Assembly: GCA_017622925.1 (NCBI GenBank)
Contig: JAGAQC010000036.1
Span: forward strand, 1-47,523
DNA from: Ruminococcus sp.
GTDB lineage: Bacteria > Bacillota > Clostridia > Oscillospirales > Ruminococcaceae
Direction of reading: 5' to 3'
DNA: 47,523 nucleotides
A model generated the notes under the pieces. It saw only the letters and a program-made list of their open reading frames with translations. It had not been told where the DNA came from and made no database searches. Below are positions 1 through 47,523 of this stretch, one piece after another (within the stretch, counting starts at the first letter, position 1; each line of letters opens with the position of its first letter). Made by a program: the position numbers and the translations under genes.

Positions 1-133
1 CGACAACAGAGATTCCAAAGGGGTCACCCCTTTGGCAGGGGGTGTGGGGTGACTCCCTACAGTGTAGGGAGATGTCACGAAGTGACAGAGGGTACGGGGC
101 GGTTAGCCAGCGTCCCCCACTAAAGTTGTAGGC
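1..133 (+). repeat. Family B palindromic repeat, copy B1, carrying a nested hairpin module
   Basis: Begins with CGACAACAGAGATTCC and the hairpin AAAGGGG/CCCCTTT, as in copies at 5485 and 40843 (reverse). The end, TCCCCCACTAAAGTTG, also matches the 40.8 kb copy. Between about 50 and 112 it carries extra hairpins (CTCCCTAC/GTAGGGAG at 53-71; TGTCAC/GTGACA at 73-87) that the other B copies lack. The left part of the element lies outside the window. Confidence 0.8.
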
Positions 134-148
134 GGTGCTTTTAAAATA

Positions 149-1122: not shown

Positions 1123-1320
1123 ATGTACCGTGTTCTTAATAAGGGAACGCCCTCTCTTGCAGGGCGTTCCCTCTCCCAAATCGGTTCACTGAACCGATTT
1201 GGGATTCACCCTTTGCGGAGCGCTTAAACGCTTTACGGGGCTTTGCCCCGCACCCCACCAGAGGCGCTGCCTCTGGACTCCGCCAAAGGGACACCGTCCC
1301 TTTGGAATCCCAATGTTAGA
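1123..1320 (+). repeat. Family A palindromic repeat, copy A1
   Basis: Starts ATGTACCGTGTTCTTAATAA and ends GGAATCCCAATGTTAG. It contains consecutive hairpins: GGGAACGCCCT/AGGGCGTTCCC (1143-1171), a variable stem CCCAAATCGGTTC/GAACCGATTTGGG (1175-1203), CGGGGC/GCCCCG, CCAGAGG/CCTCTGG and CCAAAGGGAC/GTCCCTTTGG. Related copies lie at 16522, 28748, 43470 (inverted) and 47393. With the two promoters it fills the 537-bp gap 890-1426; no gene is visible there. Confidence 0.9.
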
Positions 1321-5320: not shown

Positions 5321-5585
5321 AAAATCAATTTTAAGGTTTACAGTAAATTTATACAGAGGATTTTGTTATCCTTTATTTTCTGTTAAAGATGTAACTCTTG
5401 GTGTCCATTCTCGTGAATTGGACTGTGAAAATCATGGAAACTAACAGCATCGTGCTGATTTGGGGATTTTCACAGCCCAATTCACGACAACAGAGATTCC
5501 AAAGGGGTCACCCCTTTGGCAGGGGGTCAGGGGGACAGAGTCCCCCTGCGTAAGTTTCCCGTAAAAACTTTAAAAATTGATTTTA
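5321..5585 (+). repeat. Family B palindromic repeat, copy B2, between two permease genes
   Basis: Outer imperfect inverted repeat AAAATCAATTTT (5321-5338 against 5564-5584). Inside is a 23-bp hairpin with one mismatch at position 12 (5411-5433 against 5465-5487, TCGTGAATTGG.../...CCAATTCACGA), then the family core CGACAACAGAGATTCC (from 5485), the hairpin CCAAAGGGG/CCCCTTTGG and AGGGGGAC/GTCCCCCT. It fills almost all of the 293-bp gap 5313-5605, which has no gene. Being inside an operon, it must be transcribed. Confidence 0.85.
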
Positions 5586-16521: not shown

Positions 16522-16731
16522 ATGTACCGTGTTCCTAATAAGGGAACGCCCTCTCTTGCAGGGCGTTCCCTCTTTCCAAACAGTCATGCTGACTGTTTGG
16601 AAATTCACCCTTTGCGGAGCGCTTAAACGCTATGCAGGGCTTCGCCCCGCACCCCACCAGAGGCGCTGCCTCTGGACTCCGCCAAAGGGACACTGTCCCT
16701 TTGGAATCCCGATATTAGTTTACTTAAATTA
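16522..16731 (+). repeat. Family A palindromic repeat, copy A2
   Basis: Same order of hairpins as copy A1. The variable stem here is TCCAAACAGTCA/TGACTGTTTGGA (16575-16601). It is flanked by an inverted pair GTCTGCAACTTAAA (16502-16515) and TTTAAGTTGTAGAC (16743-16756), the second of which runs into the 3' end of cysS. The gap 16467-16744 contains no gene. Confidence 0.9.
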
Positions 16732-18325: not shown

Positions 18326-18483
18326 CCCGATGTAGGGACACGGCGTGCCGTGTCCGCACGTATTATCATGTGCAACTGTAAAAATATGGACATATTGTTA
18401 TTTCGGCTGTACACTTCTACCTATAATTATATGTTCCTGTAACTTATTTGAACGGACACGGCACGCCGTGTCCCTACATCGGG
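18326..18483. repeat. Fold-back element with perfect 31-bp terminal inverted repeats
   Basis: Left arm 18326-18356 and right arm 18453-18483 are exact reverse complements (CCCGATGTAGGGACACGG.../...CCGTGTCCCTACATCGGG) around 96 bp of AT-rich sequence. Each arm is itself a hairpin (GGACACGGC-GT-GCCGTGTCC). Lies in the 464-bp gap 18167-18630, which otherwise holds only the cysS promoter; nothing else is recognised there. Confidence 0.85.
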
Positions 18484-28747: not shown

Positions 28748-28979
28748 ATGTACCGTGTTCTTACCGTGTTCTTACCGTATTCTTAATAAGGGAACGCCCT
28801 CTCTTGCAGGGCGTTCCCTCTTTCCAAACAGTCCTACGGACTGTTTGGAAATTCACCCTTTGCGGAGCGCTTAAACGCTTTTGTGGGACGCTGTCCCACA
28901 CCCTGCCAGAGGCGCTGCCTCTGGACTCCGCCAAAGGGACACCGTCCCTTTGGAATCCCTATGTTAGTTCGCTTAAATT
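28748..28979 (+). repeat. Family A palindromic repeat, copy A3, with an 11-bp triplication
   Basis: Same layout as copy A1. The variable stem is TCCAAACAGTCC/GGACTGTTTGGA (28823-28849), and the GGGGC/GCCCC hairpin of other copies is here GTGGGAC/GTCCCAC. The 5' end carries ACCGTGTTCTT three times in tandem (28752-28784, last unit with one change). It fills most of the 329-bp gap 28659-28987 between yfhO and ecfT; no gene or clear promoter was seen there. Confidence 0.9.
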
Positions 28980-30672: not shown

Positions 30673-32277
30673 TTACTGCTTTCCCAAAAAATCCTCGATA
30701 CTGTCGGTTCCGCCCGTTGATACGTAGGAGTAATATGCCAAAATAAGCGAAGCGTCCGAAGAATCTATCGTTCCGTCTTTGTCAAGGTCGGCAAGCTTTT
30801 TCACGCTTTCCGAGAAATTGCCGTTTCCACCCGTGGAAAGCATCGCATACTCTGCCAGCACAAGGGACGCGTCGGAAGAATCGACCATGCCGTCGCCGTT
30901 GACGTCGCCGCAGCTCGCTTCTGTTATTGGCGTAGTGGTGGGCGTTGTTGTTGTGGGCGTAGTAGTAGTTGTTGTTGTTGTTGTCGTAGTTGTAGTAGTT
31001 GTAGTCGTAGTCGTAGTTGTTGTTGTCGTTGTTGGCGGCGTTCCCTCAATTACAGCAAACTTATAACCGTATTTTTCGGCGTATGCTTGCGCGGTGGAGT
31101 TTTGGCAGCCGCGGATAGTACCGTTTAAGTAAGCTTGCCCGTTTACATCATAACCGGCGAAGATCGTAGTCGGAGCATCAAGAATTTGACATTCGGGGTT
31201 TTTTATTGTTATTGATGTTAAGCCCTCACAGCTATAAAACGCGTCCCCACCAATACTTTTAACGCTGTAAGGAATTGTTATTGATGTTAAACGTTTACAG
31301 AGGGAAAATGTACCCTGCTCAATACTTGTAACGTTGTTGGAGAGAGTTACCGACGTTAATTGTGAACAGAGAGAAAACGCCATACTGCCAATACTTGTAA
31401 CACTGTCGGGTATCGTTATTGACGTTAAGCTCGAACAGCCGCTGAATGCACTTCGACCAATACTTTTAACGCTGTTCGGGATCGTTATTGACGTTAAGTT
31501 TTCACAGACGTTAAATGTACCCGTTTCAATACTTGTAATGCTGTTGGGAAGTTCTGCCGATGTTAAGCTTCTGCATTGATCAAATGTATAACTGCCGATA
31601 CTTGTAACGCTGTCGGGTATCATTATTGATCTTAACATAGTTTTATGAAACGCGTAACTGCCAATACTTGTGACGCTGTTAGGAATATTTATTGATATAA
31701 ACGGACAGCCGGAAAAAGCATAAGCGCCAATACTTGTGACGCTGTTGGGTATCCTTACTGACCCTAAGCTTATACAGTTCTCGAACGCATTCCAACCGAT
31801 ACTTGTAACGCTGTCGGGAATATCTATTGTTTCTAAACGAGAACAGCCATTAAATGCTTCATCGCTAATACTTGTAACGCCGTCGGGTATCCTTATTGAT
31901 CTTAATTCTGCACAATCACGAAATGCGCCCTTACCGATATTTGTGACGGTCTCGGGGATAATTATTCTATTTAAACCTCTACAGCCTGAAAATGCCTCGT
32001 CACCAATACTTGTAATGGGTAAATCGCCGAGTTCGTCAGAAAAACCGTAAACTTCGCTTTCTATATCAACTTCGGATGCGGATCTATTACAGCCTATTAT
32101 TTCAATATGATCGCTGTATTTCCTGATCGTAAGCTCCTTAAATGTATAATCGCGATCTTCTTCCGCGCTTGCGTTTGCGGTTACGGAAGCGTTCGGGATA
32201 ACCGCCGAAAAGGTCGGAACACCTGCGCCTATTACCGTCATTGCAAGAACTCCTGCAACAATTTTCTTGATACTCAT
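30673..32277 (-). CDS. Secreted LRR_5 (BspA-like) protein with poly-Thr linker and dockerin, LRR1
   Basis: 534 aa. Signal peptide with cleavage after the Ala-rich ANASA. About thirteen LRR_5 repeats of 23 residues (pattern SVTSIGxxAFxxCxxLTSITIPD) span about 75-385. A linker with 25 uninterrupted Thr codons plus PTTTTPTTTP follows (30928-31032). The C-terminal dockerin (about 460-534) has two calcium loops, DVNGDGMVDSSD and DLDKDGTIDSSD, so the protein should attach to a cohesin. Start ATG 32277 is chosen because AAAGG precedes it by 10 nt; seven in-frame codons upstream include that site. Third gene of an LRR cassette and 12 nt upstream of ecfA2. Confidence 0.88.
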   Translation of the reverse strand: MSIKKIVAGVLAMTVIGAGVPTFSAVIPNASVTANASAEEDRDYTFKELTIRKYSDHIEIIGCNRSASEVDIESEVYGFSDELGDLPITSIGDEAFSGCRGLNRIIIPETVTNIGKGAFRDCAELRSIRIPDGVTSISDEAFNGCSRLETIDIPDSVTSIGWNAFENCISLGSVRIPNSVTSIGAYAFSGCPFISINIPNSVTSIGSYAFHKTMLRSIMIPDSVTSIGSYTFDQCRSLTSAELPNSITSIETGTFNVCENLTSITIPNSVKSIGRSAFSGCSSLTSITIPDSVTSIGSMAFSLCSQLTSVTLSNNVTSIEQGTFSLCKRLTSITIPYSVKSIGGDAFYSCEGLTSITIKNPECQILDAPTTIFAGYDVNGQAYLNGTIRGCQNSTAQAYAEKYGYKFAVIEGTPPTTTTTTTTTTTTTTTTTTTTTTTTTPTTTTPTTTPITEASCGDVNGDGMVDSSDASLVLAEYAMLSTGGNGNFSESVKKLADLDKDGTIDSSDASLILAYYSYVSTGGTDSIEDFLGKQ

Positions 32278-32343
32278 AATAAACCAACCTTTCAACATAA
32301 GGTAACTCTTTGACCCCGTTAGCGTAAATTTAATCGGGAAAAC

Positions 32344-33660
32344 TCACTTTCCGCCCGTTGATACGTGTGCATAGTATGCCAAAATAAGCGAAGCGTCCGA
32401 GGAATCTATCGTTCCGTCTTTGTCAAAGTCGGCAAGCTTTTTCACGCTTTCCGAGAAATTGCCGTTCCCGCCCGTGGAAATCAGCGCATACTCTGTCAGC
32501 ACAAGGGACGCGTCAGAAGAATCCACCATGCCGTCGCCGTTGACGTCGCCGAGTATATCTTTTGTGGGAGCTGCGCCGAGGGACTCAAATTTATAGCCGT
32601 ACTTATTGGCGTAAGATTCGGCAGTCGAACCGCTGTAGCCCTTTATCACACCGTCATACATATGTAACCTGTTATCGTTATCAAACGAATTAGAAATAGT
32701 ACCTCTATGGTCTGCGATCTTGCAGTTGGGGTTCATAATGGTTATTGAGGTCAGGTTATAGCAGAATTCAAACGCATAATCTTCAAGACTTGTAATGAAA
32801 TAGGGAATTATAACGTCTCCTGAACAAGCTGTTCCGTCAACAAGAATGCCGTTTACAATTACTAACGGATCTTCCTTTTGTTTATTTTCAAGCCATGGAG
32901 TAGCATAAAACGCCTTGCCGCCGATATGTGTAACAGAATCGGGGATCGTTACTGAGACAAGGTTTGTGCAGAAATAAAATGCACAATTATCAATGGTCTT
33001 AACGGAATCAGAGATCGTTACCGAAGTAAGGCTTGTGCAAGTGTCAAACGCATCATAGGCGATACTTGTGACAGAATCGGGTATCGTAATATCTCCTGAA
33101 CAAGCTGTACCGTCAATAAGAATACCGTTTACAACTACTAACGGATTTTCCTTTTGCATATTTTTAAGCCATGGAGTAGCATAAAATGCCTTACCACCGA
33201 TATATGTAACAGAATCGGGGAGCGTTACGCTTGTAAGACCCAAACAACTTTCAAACGCACCATAGCCGATACTTGTGACAGAATCGGGGATCGTTACCGA
33301 GGTAAGACCATCGCAGCAGGAAAACGCTTCATTTTCAATACTTGTAACAGAATTCGGAATTATTATTGAGGTAAGACCCTTGTTATGAAAAAACGCAACT
33401 TTGCCAATACTTGTAACGGGCAGACCGCCTATTTTTGACGGAATTTCAACTTTCGCCGCGTTGCCGTTATATTTGATTATTTCAACATGATCGCTGTATT
33501 TATTAATTGCAAAATCGCCGTATGTTTCCATGGTGTAATTTTCCTCCGCGCTTGCGCTTGCGGTTACGGAAGCGTTCGGGATAACCGCCGAAAAGGTCGG
33601 AACACCCAAGCCTATTAACGTCATTGCAAGAACTCCTGCAATAATCCTCTTGATACTCAT
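32344..33660 (-). CDS. Secreted LRR_5 protein with dockerin, LRR2
   Basis: 438 aa. The signal peptide is almost identical to LRR1 (GVPTFSAVIPNASVTA). LRR_5 repeats fill about 60-345. They include an internal duplication: a segment starting IGGKAFYATPWL and ending IDGTACSGD occurs twice (around 160-205 and 255-300) with small changes. A dockerin closes the protein (DVNGDGMVDSSD, DFDKDGTIDSSD); it ends earlier than in LRR1 and LRR4, at VSTGGK. No poly-Thr linker. Start ATG 33660 has AAAGGA upstream. Likely exported and cohesin-bound; ligand unknown. Confidence 0.87.
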   Translation of the reverse strand: MSIKRIIAGVLAMTLIGLGVPTFSAVIPNASVTASASAEENYTMETYGDFAINKYSDHVEIIKYNGNAAKVEIPSKIGGLPVTSIGKVAFFHNKGLTSIIIPNSVTSIENEAFSCCDGLTSVTIPDSVTSIGYGAFESCLGLTSVTLPDSVTYIGGKAFYATPWLKNMQKENPLVVVNGILIDGTACSGDITIPDSVTSIAYDAFDTCTSLTSVTISDSVKTIDNCAFYFCTNLVSVTIPDSVTHIGGKAFYATPWLENKQKEDPLVIVNGILVDGTACSGDVIIPYFITSLEDYAFEFCYNLTSITIMNPNCKIADHRGTISNSFDNDNRLHMYDGVIKGYSGSTAESYANKYGYKFESLGAAPTKDILGDVNGDGMVDSSDASLVLTEYALISTGGNGNFSESVKKLADFDKDGTIDSSDASLILAYYAHVSTGGK

Positions 33661-33736
33661 GATAAATCGTCCTTTCAATATAAGGTAACTCGTTGCCCCC
33701 GTTACCGTAAATTTAAGCCGTGAATATTTGGAAAAC

Positions 33737-34804
33737 TCACTTTCCGCCCGTTGATACGTGGGCGTAATATGCCAAAATAAGCGAAGCGTCCGAGGAATCT
33801 ATCGTTCCGTCTTTGTCAAAGTCGGCAAGCTTTTTCACGCTTTCTGAGAAATTGCCGTTTCCACCCGTGGAAAGCATCGCATACTCTGTCAGCACAAGGG
33901 ACGCGTCGGAAGAATCAACCATGCCGTCGCCGTTGACGTCGCCGAGTATATCTTTTTTCGGAGCTTCGCCGAGGGAGACAAATTTTCTGCCGTATTTTTC
34001 GGCGTATGATTGGGCGGTCGAGTTGTCGTAGCCGTAAATTGCAGCGATCTCGCCGAGCGTACCGTCTAAATCAAAAATTGTGCAATCGGGGTTGAGAACT
34101 GTAATTTCTTGCAGTTCCGCACAATTACCAAACGCACCCAACCCAATTCTTTCAACGCTGTCGGGAATAGTAATTTTCGTCAGTCCTTTGCATTCATAAA
34201 ATGCGCTCTCGCTGATACTTACGACGCTATCGGGAATAACAACATCGCCCGAACATGTCGTGCCGTCAATTAAAATGCCATTTGCGATAACAAGCGGATC
34301 GTCTGCTTGTTTCGCTTTAAGCCACGGAGTACCGATAAAGGCGTTTTCCCCAATTTCGGTAACGCTGTCGGGAATGGTAATTTCTGTCAGATTAGTGTCC
34401 TCAAACGCATAACCCTCAATGATCGTAACGCTGTTCGGTATGGTTATCTGCGTAAGCCACTCACATCTGCAAAACGCACTGCTTCCAATACTTGTAACGC
34501 TGTTTGGTATGGTGACGTTCATCAGATTCTGACAGTCGCCAAATGCAAAAACACCGATACCCGTAACAGGCAAACCGTTGATCTCGGCAGGGATATCGAC
34601 CTCCGTTACCCCTCGTTCACAGTCCGTTATCTTGATGAAGTCCCCATAATTTCTGTAAGTAAGCACGCCCTCTGTATCCTCTGTGTAATCAGCCGCAGAA
34701 GCCGTAATCGCCGCATTATCCGCAGTTTTTCCATAGGCACAGGGCAAAACAGTTCCCATAACGCAAACCGCCGTAACGCCTGCAACAATTCTCTTGATAC
34801 TCAT
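33737..34804 (-). CDS. Secreted LRR_5 protein with dockerin, LRR3
   Basis: 355 aa. The signal peptide belongs to a second subtype shared with LRR4 (AGVTAVCVMGT, KTADNAAITASA). LRR_5 repeats span about 55-265, with one TPWLKAKQADDPLVIANG insert, then a dockerin (DVNGDGMVDSSD, DFDKDGTIDSSD) ending at STGGK. The start is ATG 34804; its ribosome binding site TGAAAGG contains the TGA of ecfA1, so the gap is only 14 nt and the gene is tightly coupled to the transporter ATPase gene. Confidence 0.87.
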   Translation of the reverse strand: MSIKRIVAGVTAVCVMGTVLPCAYGKTADNAAITASAADYTEDTEGVLTYRNYGDFIKITDCERGVTEVDIPAEINGLPVTGIGVFAFGDCQNLMNVTIPNSVTSIGSSAFCRCEWLTQITIPNSVTIIEGYAFEDTNLTEITIPDSVTEIGENAFIGTPWLKAKQADDPLVIANGILIDGTTCSGDVVIPDSVVSISESAFYECKGLTKITIPDSVERIGLGAFGNCAELQEITVLNPDCTIFDLDGTLGEIAAIYGYDNSTAQSYAEKYGRKFVSLGEAPKKDILGDVNGDGMVDSSDASLVLTEYAMLSTGGNGNFSESVKKLADFDKDGTIDSSDASLILAYYAHVSTGGK

Positions 34805-34818
34805 AATAAACCAACCTT

Positions 34819-35664
34819 TCAATTAAATAAATTCATAATAGCCGATACGCATTCTTCCTCTGTTATTATCTCGTTTGATATGTCATAGCCTGCCTTTTTA
34901 AGCTCGTAGGCAAGCTCCGTGACCTGCGGAACGTCAAGACCTATTTTCTTGACCTGCTCCACCTGCGAAAACACAGCTCTCGGGGTATCGTCAAGGATAA
35001 CTCTGCCCTTATCCATTACGACTACCCGTCCGCATTGAGCCGCTTCGTCCATATAGTGAGTTATAAGCACTATTGTAATGCCGTACTCACGGTTCATACG
35101 CTTTATGACCGCCATGACCTCGCGCCGTCCTTGGGGGTCGAGCATGGCTGTAGGCTCGTCAAGAATTATGCACTTCGGCTTCATTGCGATAATTCCGGCA
35201 ATAGCCACCCTCTGCTTCTGTCCGCCCGAAAGCTGCGACGGAGAATGCAGGCGATAATCGTACATATTTACGTCTTTCAGGGCATCGTCAACACGTCTGC
35301 GCATTTCCTCGTATGGAACTCCGAGATTTTCAAGGGCAAACGCCACGTCCTCCTCAACGATAGACGATACTATCTGATTATCGGGATTCTGAAAAACCAT
35401 TCCTGCACGGCAGCGAAGCTCGAAAATCTTATCCTCATCGGCGGTATTTATGCCGTCCACCGTGACTGTACCCGACGTGGGAACAAGTATTCCGTTGATA
35501 TGCTTTGCAAGGGTCGATTTTCCCGAGCCGTTATGCCCGAGTATCGCCGTAAACTCCCCTTCTTTTATAGTAAGGTCGATACCTTTCAGCACTTCGGCAG
35601 GTTCGCTTTCTTCCTCTGTCGGATAGCTGAAATGCAGATTTTTTATTTCAATTATATTGCTCAT
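34819..35664 (-). CDS. ecfA1: ECF transporter ATPase EcfA1
   Basis: 281 aa, full length. Walker [10 protein letters not shown] (43-51), Q-loop [17 protein letters not shown] (the N-P-D form typical of EcfA1), signature LSGGQKQR and Walker [14 protein letters not shown]. With EcfA2 and EcfT it powers uptake of vitamins or metals by S components encoded elsewhere. In most Firmicutes ecfA2 follows directly; here three LRR-dockerin genes (about 4.1 kb) come between. It lies 39 bp after the methyltransferase gene. Confidence 0.95.
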
Positions 35665-35703
35665 TTATTTCCTTTCAAGCGGCAGGCGTTCTGAAATATC
35701 AGT

Positions 35704-36567
35704 TTACTTTTCCCATATCGCCGTTGAACCGCACGGCAGGGTCATTCCCGTTGATCTTACGGGCAGACCTATCTCGTCAAAGGTAACGTTTCCGCCGAAT
35801 CTGTCGGTCAGCACGCTGCCGAGGATATAACCCATAACAGACGGCGAAAGTCCCGTTGTATAGCTGTTTATCAGAAAAAACAGCGGCTCGTCCGAAAGAA
35901 CTCCCGAACACAGCTTTACAAGGTCGTAAACGCAGTTTTCAAGCTTCCAGACCTCTCCGCCCGGACCTCTGCCGTAGCTCGGTGGGTCCATTACAACGGC
36001 GTCGTACCTGCGACCTCTGCGTATCTCACGGGCAATGAATTTTTCGCAATCGTCCACTATCCAGCGGATAGGCTTGTCGGAAAGTCCCGAAGCTGCGGCG
36101 TTTTCTCTTGCCCACTGAACCATGCCCTTTGAAGCGTCCACATGGCACACGGAAGCTCCTGCTTCGGCGCATGCAAGAGTAGCTCCGCCCGTGTAAGCGA
36201 ACAGGTTCAGCACGTTTATCTCACGTCCCGAACTGCGTATTTTTTCCGCCATGTAGTCCCAGTTTACCGCCTGTTCGGGGAAAAGTCCCGTATGCTTGAA
36301 GCCCGTGGGCTTTATGTTAAAAGTAAGATTTTTATAATTTACAGTCCAGCCGTCGGGAAGTCTCCTGCGGAACTCCCATTTTCCGCCGCCCTGATTTGAA
36401 CGGTGATAGTGACCGTCGGCTTTGTTCCACAAGGGGTCGGTTCTCTCGGTTTTCCAGATTATCTGCGGATCGGGGCGGACAAGGCTTATATCGCCCCATT
36501 TTTCGAGCTTTTCCCCGTCCGAGGTATCTATTATTCTGTAATCGCGCCAGTTTTCAGCAGTTCTCAA
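35704..36567 (-). CDS. Class I SAM-dependent methyltransferase (RlmI/RlmK-like)
   Basis: 287 aa. The C-terminal Rossmann domain has the SAM-binding motif VLNLFAYTGGATLACAEAGA (about 120-139), DASKGMVQWAREN for the ribose-binding acid, and the catalytic VMDPPSYGRG (about 193-202), a pattern of the rRNA methyltransferase-like family near RlmI. It lacks an N-terminal PUA domain; residues 1-110 are a beta-rich domain with WEFRRRLPDGW. The substrate is probably rRNA but is not proven. It sits 34 bp after the largest LRR gene and 39 bp before ecfA1. Confidence 0.82.
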   Translation of the reverse strand: MRTAENWRDYRIIDTSDGEKLEKWGDISLVRPDPQIIWKTERTDPLWNKADGHYHRSNQGGGKWEFRRRLPDGWTVNYKNLTFNIKPTGFKHTGLFPEQAVNWDYMAEKIRSSGREINVLNLFAYTGGATLACAEAGASVCHVDASKGMVQWARENAAASGLSDKPIRWIVDDCEKFIAREIRRGRRYDAVVMDPPSYGRGPGGEVWKLENCVYDLVKLCSGVLSDEPLFFLINSYTTGLSPSVMGYILGSVLTDRFGGNVTFDEIGLPVRSTGMTLPCGSTAIWEK

Positions 36568-36601
36568 AGTTACAACATCCTTTTTGATAAATCGACATTT
36601 G

Positions 36602-39334
36602 TCAATTATTTTTATTTAAAAAATCCTCGATACTGTCAGTTCCGCCCGTTGATACGTGGGCGTAATATGCCAAGATTAGCGAAGCGTCCGAGGAATCTGT
36701 CATTCCGTCTTTGTTAAGGTCGGCAAGCTTTTTCACGCTTTCCGAGAAATTGCCGTTTTTGCCCGTGGAAAGCATCGCATACTCTACAAGCACAAGCGAT
36801 GCGTCGGAAGAATCCACCATGCTGTCGCCGTTGACGTCGCCGAGCATATCGTTTGTGGAAGTTTCTGAAAACTCATTCAAATCAACCGTATAGAAGTTTA
36901 CGCACTGGTTTTCCTTGTCCGCAACCGCCCATTTAAGCGTATATCCCTCAACTATCGGCTGAACCGAGGTGTCGGAAAGTCTTGCGCCGTAAATAGCCGT
37001 TTCGTGTCTGAGAATGTTTCCGCACTCGTCTGTAACAACATATCTTATGCTGTCGAATTTGCCGTTCCCGAATTTTTCCCAAAGCACGCAGTAAGAGCCG
37101 TCAGCAAGCGTAACGACCTTTGTTTGTCCCGCCTTTTCAGTCTCGTTACATTCAGTGAGCCATATTATGTTATAGTCGGCAGTTTCTCCTGTTTCAACGT
37201 CAACTCGTTCAACGCCTGCAAGGTCCGACGCTGTATCAAATAACGTTTGATCTGTTATTTTTAAAAACACGTCATAATTATTTGTTCTTAAATCCGAGTC
37301 TCCGTAATATTCCATAGACGAGTAAACGCGTTCGGATTTTCCAACTATAGCATAAGTAGTTGCGCTTTTCGCCAAACCGCCCATATGCAGATATGTAGCG
37401 TTTCCGTCTGTTCCGTATGTTCCGCTTGCACTAATAAATATTTTTTCTCCATTACGTGCAATATAATCTGATTCTACTTTATTATCCGATACAAGATAGC
37501 TGTTGAAGTTAATTCCTCTTGGATAGCAGTCTCCTTTTTGAAGTCCTGCAAATCCATAATCTGTTGGAATAAGCGAAACGCCGAACGAATGCGAACCCTC
37601 CCAGTCACTGAATTTTAACAATTTCATAGTATCTTTATTTATTGCAGCAAATTCAGAACCCTGATGATTAAGACCGTCGCCGGAATAAGATTTTGTCCAT
37701 TCTGTATTGAAAAAACAGCCGACTACATTGTCTTTTACAGCCATACTTGCGTTACCGGCATCAAACGGGTACTGCGCGCTTGAAGTTGTTATTGGGATTC
37801 CACATCGTCCGAGAATTTTTCCGTTCAGGTCATATTTCATAATAACAAGATTTTCAGTATTCTTTTCCTTTTCTTCTTCAATAATATCCTCAGAAATACT
37901 ATATCCCCAAAGGACATATAAATTATCGTTCTCGTCAATTGTTGCAGCACCAAACGTAAAGCCGTCGTTTTCAATTTTAACGGGCTTTCTATCCGTATTT
38001 TCGGAAAACAAAGTAATTGAATTTTCTTCTCCGACTATAGCAAAAATGTTTCCTTTACTGTCCTTGCATTCCTGCAATCTATCAACAACGCCCCATGTGT
38101 AGCATGAAGTAGTGTTATCTATTGTGCTGTAGTCAATTTTCGCCTCTACAGATTTTCTTTTAGCAATATTGGATTTATCGGGTTCTGATTCCGTAATGGT
38201 GTAATTCAGTTGTGGTCTTGCCGAGTCCAACGTCACCATTTTTCTGTTGTACTTATTTGCATATTCATGTGCGGTTGAATTTTCGTAGCCGTAAATTGTA
38301 GCGGTATCGCTGATCGTGTATTCTGAATCGTCAATTTTACATATCGGATTCTTAAAGGTGATTTTTGTCAATCCTGTGCAGTCATAAAACGCAAAGTCGT
38401 CAACGTTTTTAACATTGTCCGATACAGTGATCCCTGTCAATCCTGTGCAGCCAAAAAATGCACTCCAACCAATACTTGTAACGCTGTCGGGAATAACAAC
38501 ATTACCCGAGCAGGTTTTACCGTCAATTAACATACCGTTTACGATAACAAGCGGATCATCTGCACGTTTGGCTTTAAGCCATGGAGTATTATAAAACACA
38601 TTACCGCTAATACTTGTAACACTGTCGGGTATGATAATTTCTGTCAAGCTTGTGCAGCCGCTAAACGCACCATTGCATATACTTGTAACGCTGTTGGGAA
38701 TAATAATTCCCGTCATTGCTGTGCAGTCCCGAAATGCACTATCTCCAATACTGGTAACGCTATCGGGAATTACAACATCACCCGAGCATGTCGTGCCGTC
38801 GATTAAAATTCCGTTTACGACAACAATCGGATCTTCTGCCTGTTTCGCTTTAAGCCACGGAGTATCTTTAAATACATTTTGAGCAAAATTTGTAACGCTG
38901 TCGGGTATAGTGATCTTTGTCAGGCTTGTGCAGCCCCCAAATGTATTATTTCCGATACTTGTAACGCCGTTTGGTATATTTATTTCTGTCAGGCTTTTGC
39001 AGCCATAAAACGTTTCAATACCAAAATTTTTAATACTGTCAGGAATAACAATCTCTGTCAGGCTTTCGCAATTTAAAAAAGCCCTACTCCCAATGCTTAT
39101 AACAGGAAGTCCGTCAATCTCGGCAGGAATAACGACTGATGTCGCCGATTCATCACAGTCCGAAATCACAATAGAGCCAATAAATTTTTCGTAGGTAAGC
39201 TGTTCGTATGTTCCCTCTGTATAAGCAGAAGCCGTAACAGCCGCATTATCCGCAGTTTTTACGCCAACATAGGGCAAAAAAGTCCCCATAACGCAAGCCG
39301 CCGTAACGCCTGCAATAATTTTCTTCAAATTCAT
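36602..39334 (-). CDS. Large secreted LRR_5 / beta-propeller-like / dockerin protein, LRR4
   Basis: 910 aa. The signal peptide is like LRR3. LRR_5 repeats (about 60-360) contain two TPWLKAK inserts of the kind seen in LRR2 and LRR3. Residues about 385-830 are different: repeated beta units (NIFAIVGEENSITLFSE, NLYVLWGYSISE, TTYAIVGKSERVYSS, SYCVLWEKFG) suggest a propeller or similar beta fold. A dockerin (DVNGDSMVDSSD, DLNKDGMTDSSD) ends the protein. Start ATG 39334 follows AAGGGTGG. It lies 42 bp after the GlmM-like gene. Function beyond surface display is unknown. Confidence 0.85.
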   Translation of the reverse strand: MNLKKIIAGVTAACVMGTFLPYVGVKTADNAAVTASAYTEGTYEQLTYEKFIGSIVISDCDESATSVVIPAEIDGLPVISIGSRAFLNCESLTEIVIPDSIKNFGIETFYGCKSLTEINIPNGVTSIGNNTFGGCTSLTKITIPDSVTNFAQNVFKDTPWLKAKQAEDPIVVVNGILIDGTTCSGDVVIPDSVTSIGDSAFRDCTAMTGIIIPNSVTSICNGAFSGCTSLTEIIIPDSVTSISGNVFYNTPWLKAKRADDPLVIVNGMLIDGKTCSGNVVIPDSVTSIGWSAFFGCTGLTGITVSDNVKNVDDFAFYDCTGLTKITFKNPICKIDDSEYTISDTATIYGYENSTAHEYANKYNRKMVTLDSARPQLNYTITESEPDKSNIAKRKSVEAKIDYSTIDNTTSCYTWGVVDRLQECKDSKGNIFAIVGEENSITLFSENTDRKPVKIENDGFTFGAATIDENDNLYVLWGYSISEDIIEEEKEKNTENLVIMKYDLNGKILGRCGIPITTSSAQYPFDAGNASMAVKDNVVGCFFNTEWTKSYSGDGLNHQGSEFAAINKDTMKLLKFSDWEGSHSFGVSLIPTDYGFAGLQKGDCYPRGINFNSYLVSDNKVESDYIARNGEKIFISASGTYGTDGNATYLHMGGLAKSATTYAIVGKSERVYSSMEYYGDSDLRTNNYDVFLKITDQTLFDTASDLAGVERVDVETGETADYNIIWLTECNETEKAGQTKVVTLADGSYCVLWEKFGNGKFDSIRYVVTDECGNILRHETAIYGARLSDTSVQPIVEGYTLKWAVADKENQCVNFYTVDLNEFSETSTNDMLGDVNGDSMVDSSDASLVLVEYAMLSTGKNGNFSESVKKLADLNKDGMTDSSDASLILAYYAHVSTGGTDSIEDFLNKNN

Positions 39335-39376
39335 AATAAACCACCCTTTTTTTAATAAATCCGCAAACATATCAAA

Positions 39377-40735: not shown

Positions 40736-40764
40736 AGCCATTACACCTGCCTGTTTTTTTGTCA

Positions 40765-40985
40765 CTGTCTGCAACTTTAGTGGGGGACTCTGTCCCCCAC
40801 ACCCCCTGCCAAAGGGGTGACCCCTTTGGAATCTCTGTTGTCGTAAATTTTCCTGCATAAAGCCTTCTGTGTACATCAAAATCCGAATTCTTATAGCTTT
40901 ATGCAGAAAAATTTACGATATAGGGTTCAAAGAATAACCTTTTGACAAAAGTTATAGGAAACAATATCCACTAAGTTATAGACAG
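40765..40985 (-). repeat. Family B palindromic repeat, copy B3, in the leader of the GlmM-like gene
   Basis: Outer inverted pair CTGTCTGCAACTTTAGTGG (40765-40783) and CCACTAAGTTATAGACAG (40968-40985). On the minus strand it holds a 23-bp hairpin with one mismatch at position 12 (40896-40918 and 40841-40863, TCGTAAATTTT.../...AAAATTTACGA), then the core CGACAACAGAGATTCC (ending 40843) and hairpins AAAGGGG/CCCCTTT and GTGGGGGAC/GTCCCCCAC. It fills the 253-bp gap 40736-40988, where no gene is visible. Confidence 0.85.
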
Positions 40986-40988
40986 TGG

Positions 40989-43469: not shown

Positions 43470-43727
43470 TAAGCAAACTAACATCGGGATTCCAAAGGGA
43501 CGGTGTCCCTTTGGCGGAGTCCATAGGCAGCGCCTCTGGTGGGGTGTGGGGCAACGCCCCGCAAAGCGTTAAGCGCTCCGCAAAGGGTGAATTTCCAAAC
43601 AGTCCGTCGGACTGTTTGGAAAGAGGTGACTCCCCACGGGTGGGGAGATGCCCGAAGGGCAGAGGGGACGGCACGAAGTGCGCCCTGCAAGAGAGGGCGT
43701 TCCCTTATTAAGAACACGGTACACCAT
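43470..43727 (-). repeat. Family A palindromic repeat, copy A4 (inverted), with nested hairpin module
   Basis: Inverted relative to the other A copies. The variable stem is TCCAAACAGTCC/GGACTGTTTGGA (43594-43620). At 43627-43680 an extra block interrupts the GGGAACGCCCT hairpin: CTCCCCAC/GTGGGGAG (43630-43647), TGCCC/GGGCA (43649-43661) and GCAC/GTGC. The same kind of block interrupts repeat B1. With the leader at 43367-43429 it fills the gap 43343-43778; no gene is visible. Confidence 0.9.
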
Positions 43728-45082: not shown

Positions 45083-45102
45083 CTTTGGAATCCCAATGTT
45101 AT
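45083..45102 (+). repeat. Solo terminal fragment of a family A repeat
   Basis: CTTTGGAATCCCAATGTTA is identical to the right end of copy A1 (about 1298-1317) but the rest of the element is missing. It lies between ruvC and the zinc-ribbon gene. Confidence 0.6.
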
Positions 45103-45184
45103 TCTACCCTAACTTAACCATTGTTTAAACTACACAAATAATAAACGGCAAAAAAAACAATGTGTACAAATTTTTAGAAAGGTA

Positions 45185-47392: not shown

Positions 47393-47523
47393 TTATGTTC
47401 CTATTAAGTGAACGCCCTCTCTTGCAGGGCGTTCCCTCTTTCAAAACAGTCCGCAGGACTGTTTTGAAATTCGCCCTTTGCGGAGCGCTTAAACGCTATG
47501 CAGGGCTTTGCCCCGCACCCCAC
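47393..47523 (+). repeat. Family A palindromic repeat, copy A5, cut by the window end
   Basis: Contains GAACGCCCT/AGGGCGTTC and the variable stem TCAAAACAGTCC/GGACTGTTTTGA (47441-47467), followed by TTTGCGGAGCGCTTAAACGC and the start of the GGGC/GCCC hairpin. The right part lies beyond the window. Together with the terminator and the fold-back element it fills 47113-47523; no gene is seen. Confidence 0.85.

Follow-up and report, generated by a model that had tools for sequence, protein, structure and literature searches.

Family A, an interspersed repeat with five copies in the analysed stretch of 47,523 bp of a Ruminococcus sp. genome (the window), is a genus-wide, non-autonomous, MITE-like mobile DNA element. 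That it is a mobile element with a covarying, probably selected structure of three segments is well supported. These segments are best read as touching in a DNA triplex. The complete explanation, which combines a mobile element, an intrastrand triplex fold and selection on the element's own spread, is assigned a probability of about 0.5.

Copies and distribution

The window genome consists of 2.5 Mb in 76 contigs and is about 88% complete. The neighbouring RuvA gene places it in Ruminococcus, its closest relatives in a named collection being records of Ruminococcus sp. and R. flavefaciens. A sequence-only reading of the window had listed five copies of family A and a solo end, all of which were found at their positions:

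1123..1320, plus strand: copy A1, without a copy at the orthologous site of the close relative G064
16522..16731, plus strand: copy A2, with a conserved core at 16540-16710 and decayed ends outside the core
28748..28979, plus strand: copy A3, with an empty site in G064 and a 10-bp A+T-rich near-duplication
43470..43727, minus strand: copy A4, inverted, with extra hairpins within the 3' arm of stem 1
45083..45107, plus strand: solo right end; the orthologous G064 site has a full copy
47393..47523, plus strand: copy A5, cut by the window end; its left end is like that of the subfamily with IS4-type ends

The hairpin arms quoted in that reading were recovered as well, as CCCAAATCGGTTC/GAACCGATTTGGG and CGGGGC/GCCCCG in A1, TCCAAACAGTCA/TGACTGTTTGGA in A2, GTGGGAC/GTCCCAC in A3 and TCAAAAC/GTTTTGA in A5. 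Its statement that the repeat is not decayed junk was borne out by empty sites, duplications and ends that adjoin stem-loops, which identify family A as a mobile element. The comparison of occupied and empty sites that it had proposed was made with G064, where A3 and other copies are absent at the orthologous sites. The A3 site in G064 is uninterrupted sequence, and the near-duplication at A3 is identical at 8 of 10 positions in a register picked by eye. Other copy-less sites are without a clean duplication; among the own-versus-G064 sites displayed, a clear target duplication was present at 1 of 15 (A3). The G064 site that corresponds to the solo end contains both this end and the full copy, so that the solo end may have been left by a deletion or be an older end.

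A core hairpin pattern of 29 nt, with up to 3 mismatches, was found 81 times in the window genome (44 forward, 37 reverse); the reversed-pattern control gave 0. Of 82 family A copies, 72 overlap no open reading frame of at least 100 aa, the repeat being short, non-coding and repeated, as MITEs are. BLAST matches to A2 were obtained in 66 of 100 same-genus genomes and none in plasmids. Family A looks genus-restricted at the stringency of a search with the stem 4 module, because among 391 genomes of the class this module matched only the window's own. The core hairpin alone, with the remainder of the element missing, is present at L040, L042, L058 and G064:C1:14102; these hairpins are perhaps ordinary terminators that resemble stem 1, and a possible origin of it. 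A 31-bp inverted repeat with GGGACACGGCGTGCCGTGTCC is located at 18326-18483, and several family A copies have similar hairpins at their left end.

Anatomy of copy A2

The elements of A2 are arranged 5' to 3' on the plus strand as stem 1, stem 2, T1, stem 3 with T3, stem 4 with T4, and stem 5 with T5. Window positions are given by 16539 plus the alignment column.

16542..16552, plus strand: stem 1 5' arm (GGGAACGCCCT), covaries with 16560-16570 and T1
16560..16570, plus strand: stem 1 3' arm (AGGGCGTTCCC), supported by covariation
16573..16603, plus strand: stem 2, a 13-bp palindrome with hypervariable loop, whose alleles swap sequence with pairing kept
16608..16618, plus strand: T1 (CCCTTTGCGGA), mirror of the stem 1 3' arm
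16634..16650, plus strand: stem 3 (GCAGGGC TTC GCCCCGC)
16652..16656, plus strand: T3, the pyrimidine tail of stem 3 (CCCCA; CCCT if the arm is GGGA)
16657..16675, plus strand: stem 4 (CCAGAGGC GCT GCCTCTGG)
16677..16681, plus strand: T4, the tail of stem 4 (CTCCG)
16682..16704, plus strand: stem 5 (CCAAAGGGAC ACT GTCCCTTTGG)
16707..16710, plus strand: T5, the tail of stem 5 (TCCC), assigned from the sequence alone

In stems 1, 3, 4 and 5 a purine-rich 5' arm is followed by a pyrimidine 3' arm and then by a segment that mirrors the 3' arm. T1 is the parallel complement of the stem 1 5' arm save at 3 central positions. Folded as single-stranded DNA, the plus strand of the A2 core reaches -56.9 kcal/mol (z -10.8 versus shuffles).

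Covariation of stem 1 and T1

The T1 segment was first seen by eye in the copies and was then ranked by a covariation scan to which no structure was supplied. The scan covered 82 rows, of which 58 were from relatives and 24 were randomly chosen own or G064 copies. Column pairs 6-72 and 28-72 were within the eight best pairs, followed by 12-78 and 22-78. Against 400 phylogenetic nulls, the E values were about 0.005 for 6-28 and 6-72, 0.0125 for 28-72, 0.015 for 12-22, and 0.13 for both 12-78 and 22-78. T1 lies at a constant offset of +66 columns from the stem 1 5' arm and is therefore the parallel complement of that arm and the mirror image of the 3' arm.

At level 6 (columns 6-28-72) the 57 ungapped rows of the relatives read G-C-C 29 times and A-T-T 26 times, with 2 exceptions; one of the 58 relative rows is gapped at levels 3-8. 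At level 12 (columns 12-22-78) C-G-G was counted 38 times and T-A-A 19 times with 1 exception (n=58). The same rule is followed at level 5 (GCC 53, ATT 3, 1 exception in the relatives) and level 11 (CGG 45, TAA 9, 4 exceptions in 58 relatives), which are not significant alone (E at least 60 and about 24, respectively); nor are the ordinary stem pairs at these levels. Central levels 8-10 (columns 74-76) break the mirror rule, and these breaks are ascribed to a strand switch of the purine tract. Eleven levels with three breaks are a short pattern.

A pattern search of 125 genus genomes found the arrangement in 56 and the reversed pattern in 0, and listed 150 rows, from which 109 distinct rows from 23 genomes were taken. 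The mirror rule holds in 102 of the 109 between columns 28,29 and 71,72 (shuffle maximum 62) and in 98 between columns 22,23 and 77,78 (shuffle maximum 68); a hand count of all 150 listed rows, repeats included, gave 143 and 130. Exceptions at the second pair of positions come mostly from one genome, G032. The mirror order is fixed because asymmetric alleles follow it: CT is matched by TC in 9 of 9 cases (5 genomes), AG by GA in 37 of 38 (11 genomes) and GA by AG in 7 of 9 (4 genomes). Where the arms disagree at the outer end (e.g. L018, L021, L024), T1 matches the 3' arm, and in L233 and L238 one base has been lost in each stem 1 arm and in T1. The sequence-only reading had claimed a selected structure from paired stems; the stronger evidence for it is this third, mirror-oriented segment, which was absent from that reading.

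Two other partners for T1 were rejected. Antiparallel pairing with the flanking AAGGG is contradicted by the asymmetric alleles GGAGA/CCTCT and GGAAA/CCTTT. As for the stretch between stems 4 and 5, with which T1 pairs in the minus-strand RNA fold, columns 72-147 are outside the best 70 covarying pairs.

Tails T3 and T4

T3 and T4 have the same design as T1 and are less strict. Among 124 parsed copies the variable end base of T3 fits in 112 and does not fit in 12 (24 of 148 copies were unparsed). In the window genome GGGA arms have CCCT tails and GGGG or GGG arms have CCCC tails, as is the case in the relatives with exceptions. A frequent CTCTG variant of T4 breaks the mirror rule. Strong covariation was also detected between columns 103 and 117 (window 16642 and 16656; T-A 56 and C-G 23 of 81), a loop base of stem 3 and the base just after the tail, for which the triplex model offers no explanation.

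Pairing in stem 2

Stem 2 was parsed in 80 copies from the own genome and the part of G064 compared, excluding 9 of 90 rows in which no stem 2 could be recognised and one 25-nt copy of the remaining 81; L025 was trimmed by one base to fit. Counts for own copies were taken from this per-copy parse; alignment-based own-copy counts include misaligned rows. Of 1040 pair cells, 1028 are Watson-Crick, 4 are A.C, 8 are other mismatches and 0 are G.T. A perfect 13-bp stem is present in 68 of the 80 copies (mean 17, maximum 27 when the arms are dealt at random), with 18 different left arms. The 109 rows from 23 genomes include 93 stems that are perfect over 12 pairs, and their non-Watson-Crick cells are 2 G.T, 8 A.C and 12 other of 1308. 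Pairs 36-62 and 37-61 exceed 400 of 400 phylogenetic nulls and pair 38-60 exceeds all save one.

Proposed triple helix in DNA and alternative explanations

Watson-Crick pairing between any two of the segments, or between their complements, does not produce the mirror relation, which is how a third strand in the major groove relates to a duplex. Mirror covariation would follow from a triple helix, and we know of no mutational process or antiparallel pairing that yields it. Levels 3-7 have their purines in the 5' arm, with a pyrimidine T1 that runs parallel to them (C.G-C, T.A-T). In levels 11-12, and more loosely in level 13, it is the 3' arm that carries the purines, and T1, here purine itself, runs antiparallel to them (G.G-C, A.A-T). 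With T-A arms at level 13 the third base in the 58 relatives is A 38 times, G 18 times and T 2 times, A being predicted, and the misfit recurs in 21 of the 109 rows; because the base is often G instead of the predicted A, the purine-motif half rests on levels 11-12. Both motifs can be joined where a purine tract changes strand, as in designed oligonucleotides, and C+.G-C triplets need protonation. The pyrimidine and purine motifs are the two triplex motifs given in the introduction of PMC4666352.

In the proposed mechanism, single-stranded family A DNA would fold into a chain of hairpins, in which stem 2 would act as a turn between stem 1 and T1. T1 would occupy the major groove of stem 1, forming an intrastrand triplex whose first half obeys the pyrimidine-motif code and whose second half, the purine tract having switched strands, obeys the purine-motif code. 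Selection would act on how well the element itself spreads, with only copies that fold correctly being mobilised or surviving, possibly because the mobilising enzyme reads DNA hairpins and the third strand marks or shields the element's own.

The sequence-only reading had offered structure in RNA or in DNA cruciforms as alternatives. DNA is favoured on two counts: T1 would use both triplex motifs, and RNA is said to be unable to form the purine one (PMC4666352, introduction); and stem 2 has few wobble pairs (0 of 1040 cells here, 2 of 1308 in the 109 rows from 23 genomes). A structured RNA from the minus strand (e.g. a 3'-UTR or a small RNA), with hairpins and T1 kept for RNA function, would accommodate several findings and is nevertheless rather unlikely. 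The non-Watson-Crick cells of the relatives contain 61 A.C versus 13 G.T (distinct kinds 18 versus 12), an excess that would represent G.U tolerated on the minus strand. Both flanking genes are antisense to the element, and thus run with its minus strand, 31 times versus 15 times, with the gene stop at a median distance of 41 bp, and the minus-strand RNA fold reaches -101.4 kcal/mol (z -8.9). However, half of the T1 contacts would be triplets of the purine motif, which RNA is said to be unable to form; stem 2 contains few wobble cells; and copies in other species often adjoin terminator-like stem-loops, some on both sides, where read-through is unlikely. The Rfam search that the earlier reading had suggested returned 0 matches to family A at the gathering threshold; the best minus-strand hint was a sub-threshold likeness to Clostridiales-2 RNA at window 16639-16718 on the minus strand (14.9 bits versus 58.6).

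It is improbable that T1 tracks stem 1 merely through descent from a shared few ancestral haplotypes. The copies within a genome are related and recombining, few alleles exist, levels 5 and 11 lack significance alone and 12-78 reaches only E 0.13, all of which would suit such descent. Against it, stem 2 swaps between stem 1 and T1, which lie on either side of it. Joint changes on the tree outnumber separate ones at columns 6/72 (6:1), columns 12/78 (5:1) and level 5 (3:1); at level 11 the balance is the opposite (2:4). Among the 109 rows most combinations of alleles at the two triples are represented, and asymmetric alleles keep the mirror order in up to 11 genomes.

Exchange within stem 2 is visible at orthologous sites. 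For 21 of the 77 own copies, both flanks had a counterpart in the part of G064 compared, and 3 of these 21 sites have a copy in both genomes; stem 2 differs at all 3 shared sites (G000/G064). In L055 the stem 2 arms are wholly different from those in G064 and the rest, stem 1 included, is nearly identical, with complete identity over some 40 bases upstream and 60 downstream of stem 2. L032 differs by one compensated pair plus the loop, and L033 in the loop and one pair of stem 2. The L033 loop reads CCTGCG(A) versus CCGCAGG at G064:C9:37994, near its reverse complement, as if the hairpin tip were inverted relative to G064. Because the whole stem changes in L055 while its neighbours stay, stem 2 cannot alone prove selection, and it could be explained by gene conversion or template switching without selection. 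The earlier argument that both arms change together is upheld in that the covariation is real and several stem pairs beat the phylogenetic null, but in stem 2 such changes can be whole-stem allele swaps, which by themselves are weak proof. That template switching at palindromes and gene conversion between copies keep all arms symmetrical with no selected structure would fit L055, L032 and L033, the hypervariable loops, and the gradual decay of element ends around alike cores, but is highly improbable, as template switching makes inverted and not mirror repeats and leaves the tracking of stem 1 by T1 unaccounted for.

Terminal repeats and mobility

The terminal repeats are decayed in most family A copies of the window genome and present in many copies of some other species. 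A young subfamily of about 254 bp in the window genome has ends like CACTATYYACAACTTAAG, and terminal inverted repeats are present in its copies L036, L038, L063, L072 and L076. IS4-type ends with up to 2 mismatches were counted 150 times in the window genome (control 2). With up to 1 mismatch they were found in 8 of 60 genus genomes and are abundant only in the window's own. Duplications of 10 bp, A+T-rich and recognised by eye, flank some of these ends, e.g. L038:6313. A 1413-bp insertion sequence with IS4-type ends in a same-genus genome (L185:1018-2430) encodes a 445-aa IS4-family transposase, and apparent fragments of a relative lie at contig ends in the window genome. Its terminal repeats, CACTATCCACAACTTAA(G/C), are common to the young subfamily and to family B; in contrast, the ends of most family A copies here have decayed, and those found in other species are different.

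40763..40987, plus strand: family B MITE with the same IS4-type terminal repeats (CACTGTCTGCAACTTTAG)

Family B repeats with IS4-type ends are also located at window 1-137 and 5408-5546, and pairs of family B terminal inverted repeats about 228 bp apart recur in the window genome. A family B hairpin of GTGGGGGAC and GTCCCCCAC, followed by ACCCCCTG (L194), again shows a parallel complement.

Two candidate sources of mobility were discarded. The sole pair of IS4-type ends more than 500 bp apart in the initial loci, separated by 2468 bp, spans a helicase-like open reading frame and is not a transposon. A system driven by a Y1 transposase (REP/RAYT) was rejected as no Y1_Tnp was found in the window genome, about 88% complete; this transposase was found in 23 of 60 same-genus genomes searched.

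Insertion at stem-loop feet in other species

In several other species family A copies end in CAGYYTGTCRAAAAA. Exact ends of this kind were counted 79 times in G096 (control 0), 11 in G094 (1), 10 in G066 (0), 9 in G032 (2), 5 in G043 (0) and 5 in G012 (0). They are not enriched in G035, where 23 were found with up to 1 mismatch versus 26 for the reversed control. Of 40 CAGYYTGTCRAAAAA ends with flank, 36 adjoin a stem-loop, mostly with zero bases between (random 36-mers 0.5%). A duplication of 18-29 bp, usually the stem-loop itself, flanks 14 of 52 other-species copies and 0 of 624 mismatched flank pairs. The insertion point of family A in these species is the foot of a terminator-like stem-loop, and at some copies the stem-loop has been duplicated. 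The target may be chosen by shape, and the adjoining stem-loops are probably working terminators. Copies at stem-loop feet include L260-L279 (G096), L018, L216, L227, L230 and others. No autonomous element with CAGYYTGTCRAAAAA ends was found in 20 G096 stretches.

Comparison with known systems

The earlier statement that no named element has this form agrees with the lack of an Rfam match, but its closest known counterparts are MITEs and intrastrand triplex motifs. The latter (PIT/BoxC, TM_ECO; ITxF classes I-IV), as described in PMC4666352, have the same purine, pyrimidine and mirror third block on one strand and, like family A, are repeated in many copies per genome. Family A corresponds to class III on the plus strand; the block order of this class (R, Y, mirror Y) is found in stem 1/T1 at levels 3-7 and, with exceptions, in stem 3/T3 and stem 4/T4. 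Family A lies outside the ITxF search rule of 6-15 triplets, at most 1 mismatch and loops of 1-6 nt, as stem 1/T1 spans 11 levels, of which 3 are broken, its second loop measures 37 nt, and stems 3 and 4 have 4-5 levels. It differs from the motifs described there in having both triplex motifs in one stem, a whole hairpin as second loop, several modules per element and natural three-way covariation. The main text of that paper contains neither 'covari' nor 'compensatory' nor Ruminococcus.

MITEs such as BOX and RUP of pneumococcus are, like family A, short, non-coding, strongly folded and interspersed, and BOX has modules in variable number (PMC3049150; PMC10969869). Relative to their description in these sources, family A adds the three-segment covariation and, in other species, the duplication of the stem-loop target. 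The IS1202 group is described in PMC10132070 with target duplications of 16-28 bp and unknown targets; those of family A are similar (18-29 bp). Ends of the ISAjo2 type begin with 5'-TGT according to the same source, whereas in family A CAG precedes TGTC. The end of the element appears to be CAG and not TGT because the stem-loop stops directly before CAG, as it does in most of the 40 sites. REP-targeting insertion sequences, by the account in PMC1525189, cut inside palindromes and make short or no duplications. No terminator-targeting element that matches family A was found among the literature titles listed, and the combination of a mobile repeat, three-segment covariation and stem-loop targeting was not found in print in literature listings.

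Whether intrastrand DNA triplexes act in living bacteria is an open question. According to PMC4666352 the motifs are abundant in bacteria and one folds stably in vitro, but its footprinting in vivo detected no stable triplex (section 17). The three-way covariation is evolutionary evidence that the three segments stay matched, and it provides defined single, double and triple exchanges for testing. The stem-loop duplications would define a target rule by shape and not by sequence, and the stem-loop foot would be a harmless landing site because both terminator copies survive. We propose, tentatively, that selection maintains an alternate-strand DNA triple helix in family A, which would make it the first such case in a natural nucleic acid to be revealed through covariation. 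Family A would also be a mobile element whose enzyme picks its targets by DNA shape, cutting both feet of a terminator stem-loop so that the whole loop is duplicated, and the element's own third strands would mark its hairpins or protect them from that enzyme.

Elsewhere in the window, many 69-bp repeats (23-residue units) are contained within large minus-strand open reading frames at 30673-39370. We take these units to resemble those of leucine-rich surface proteins.
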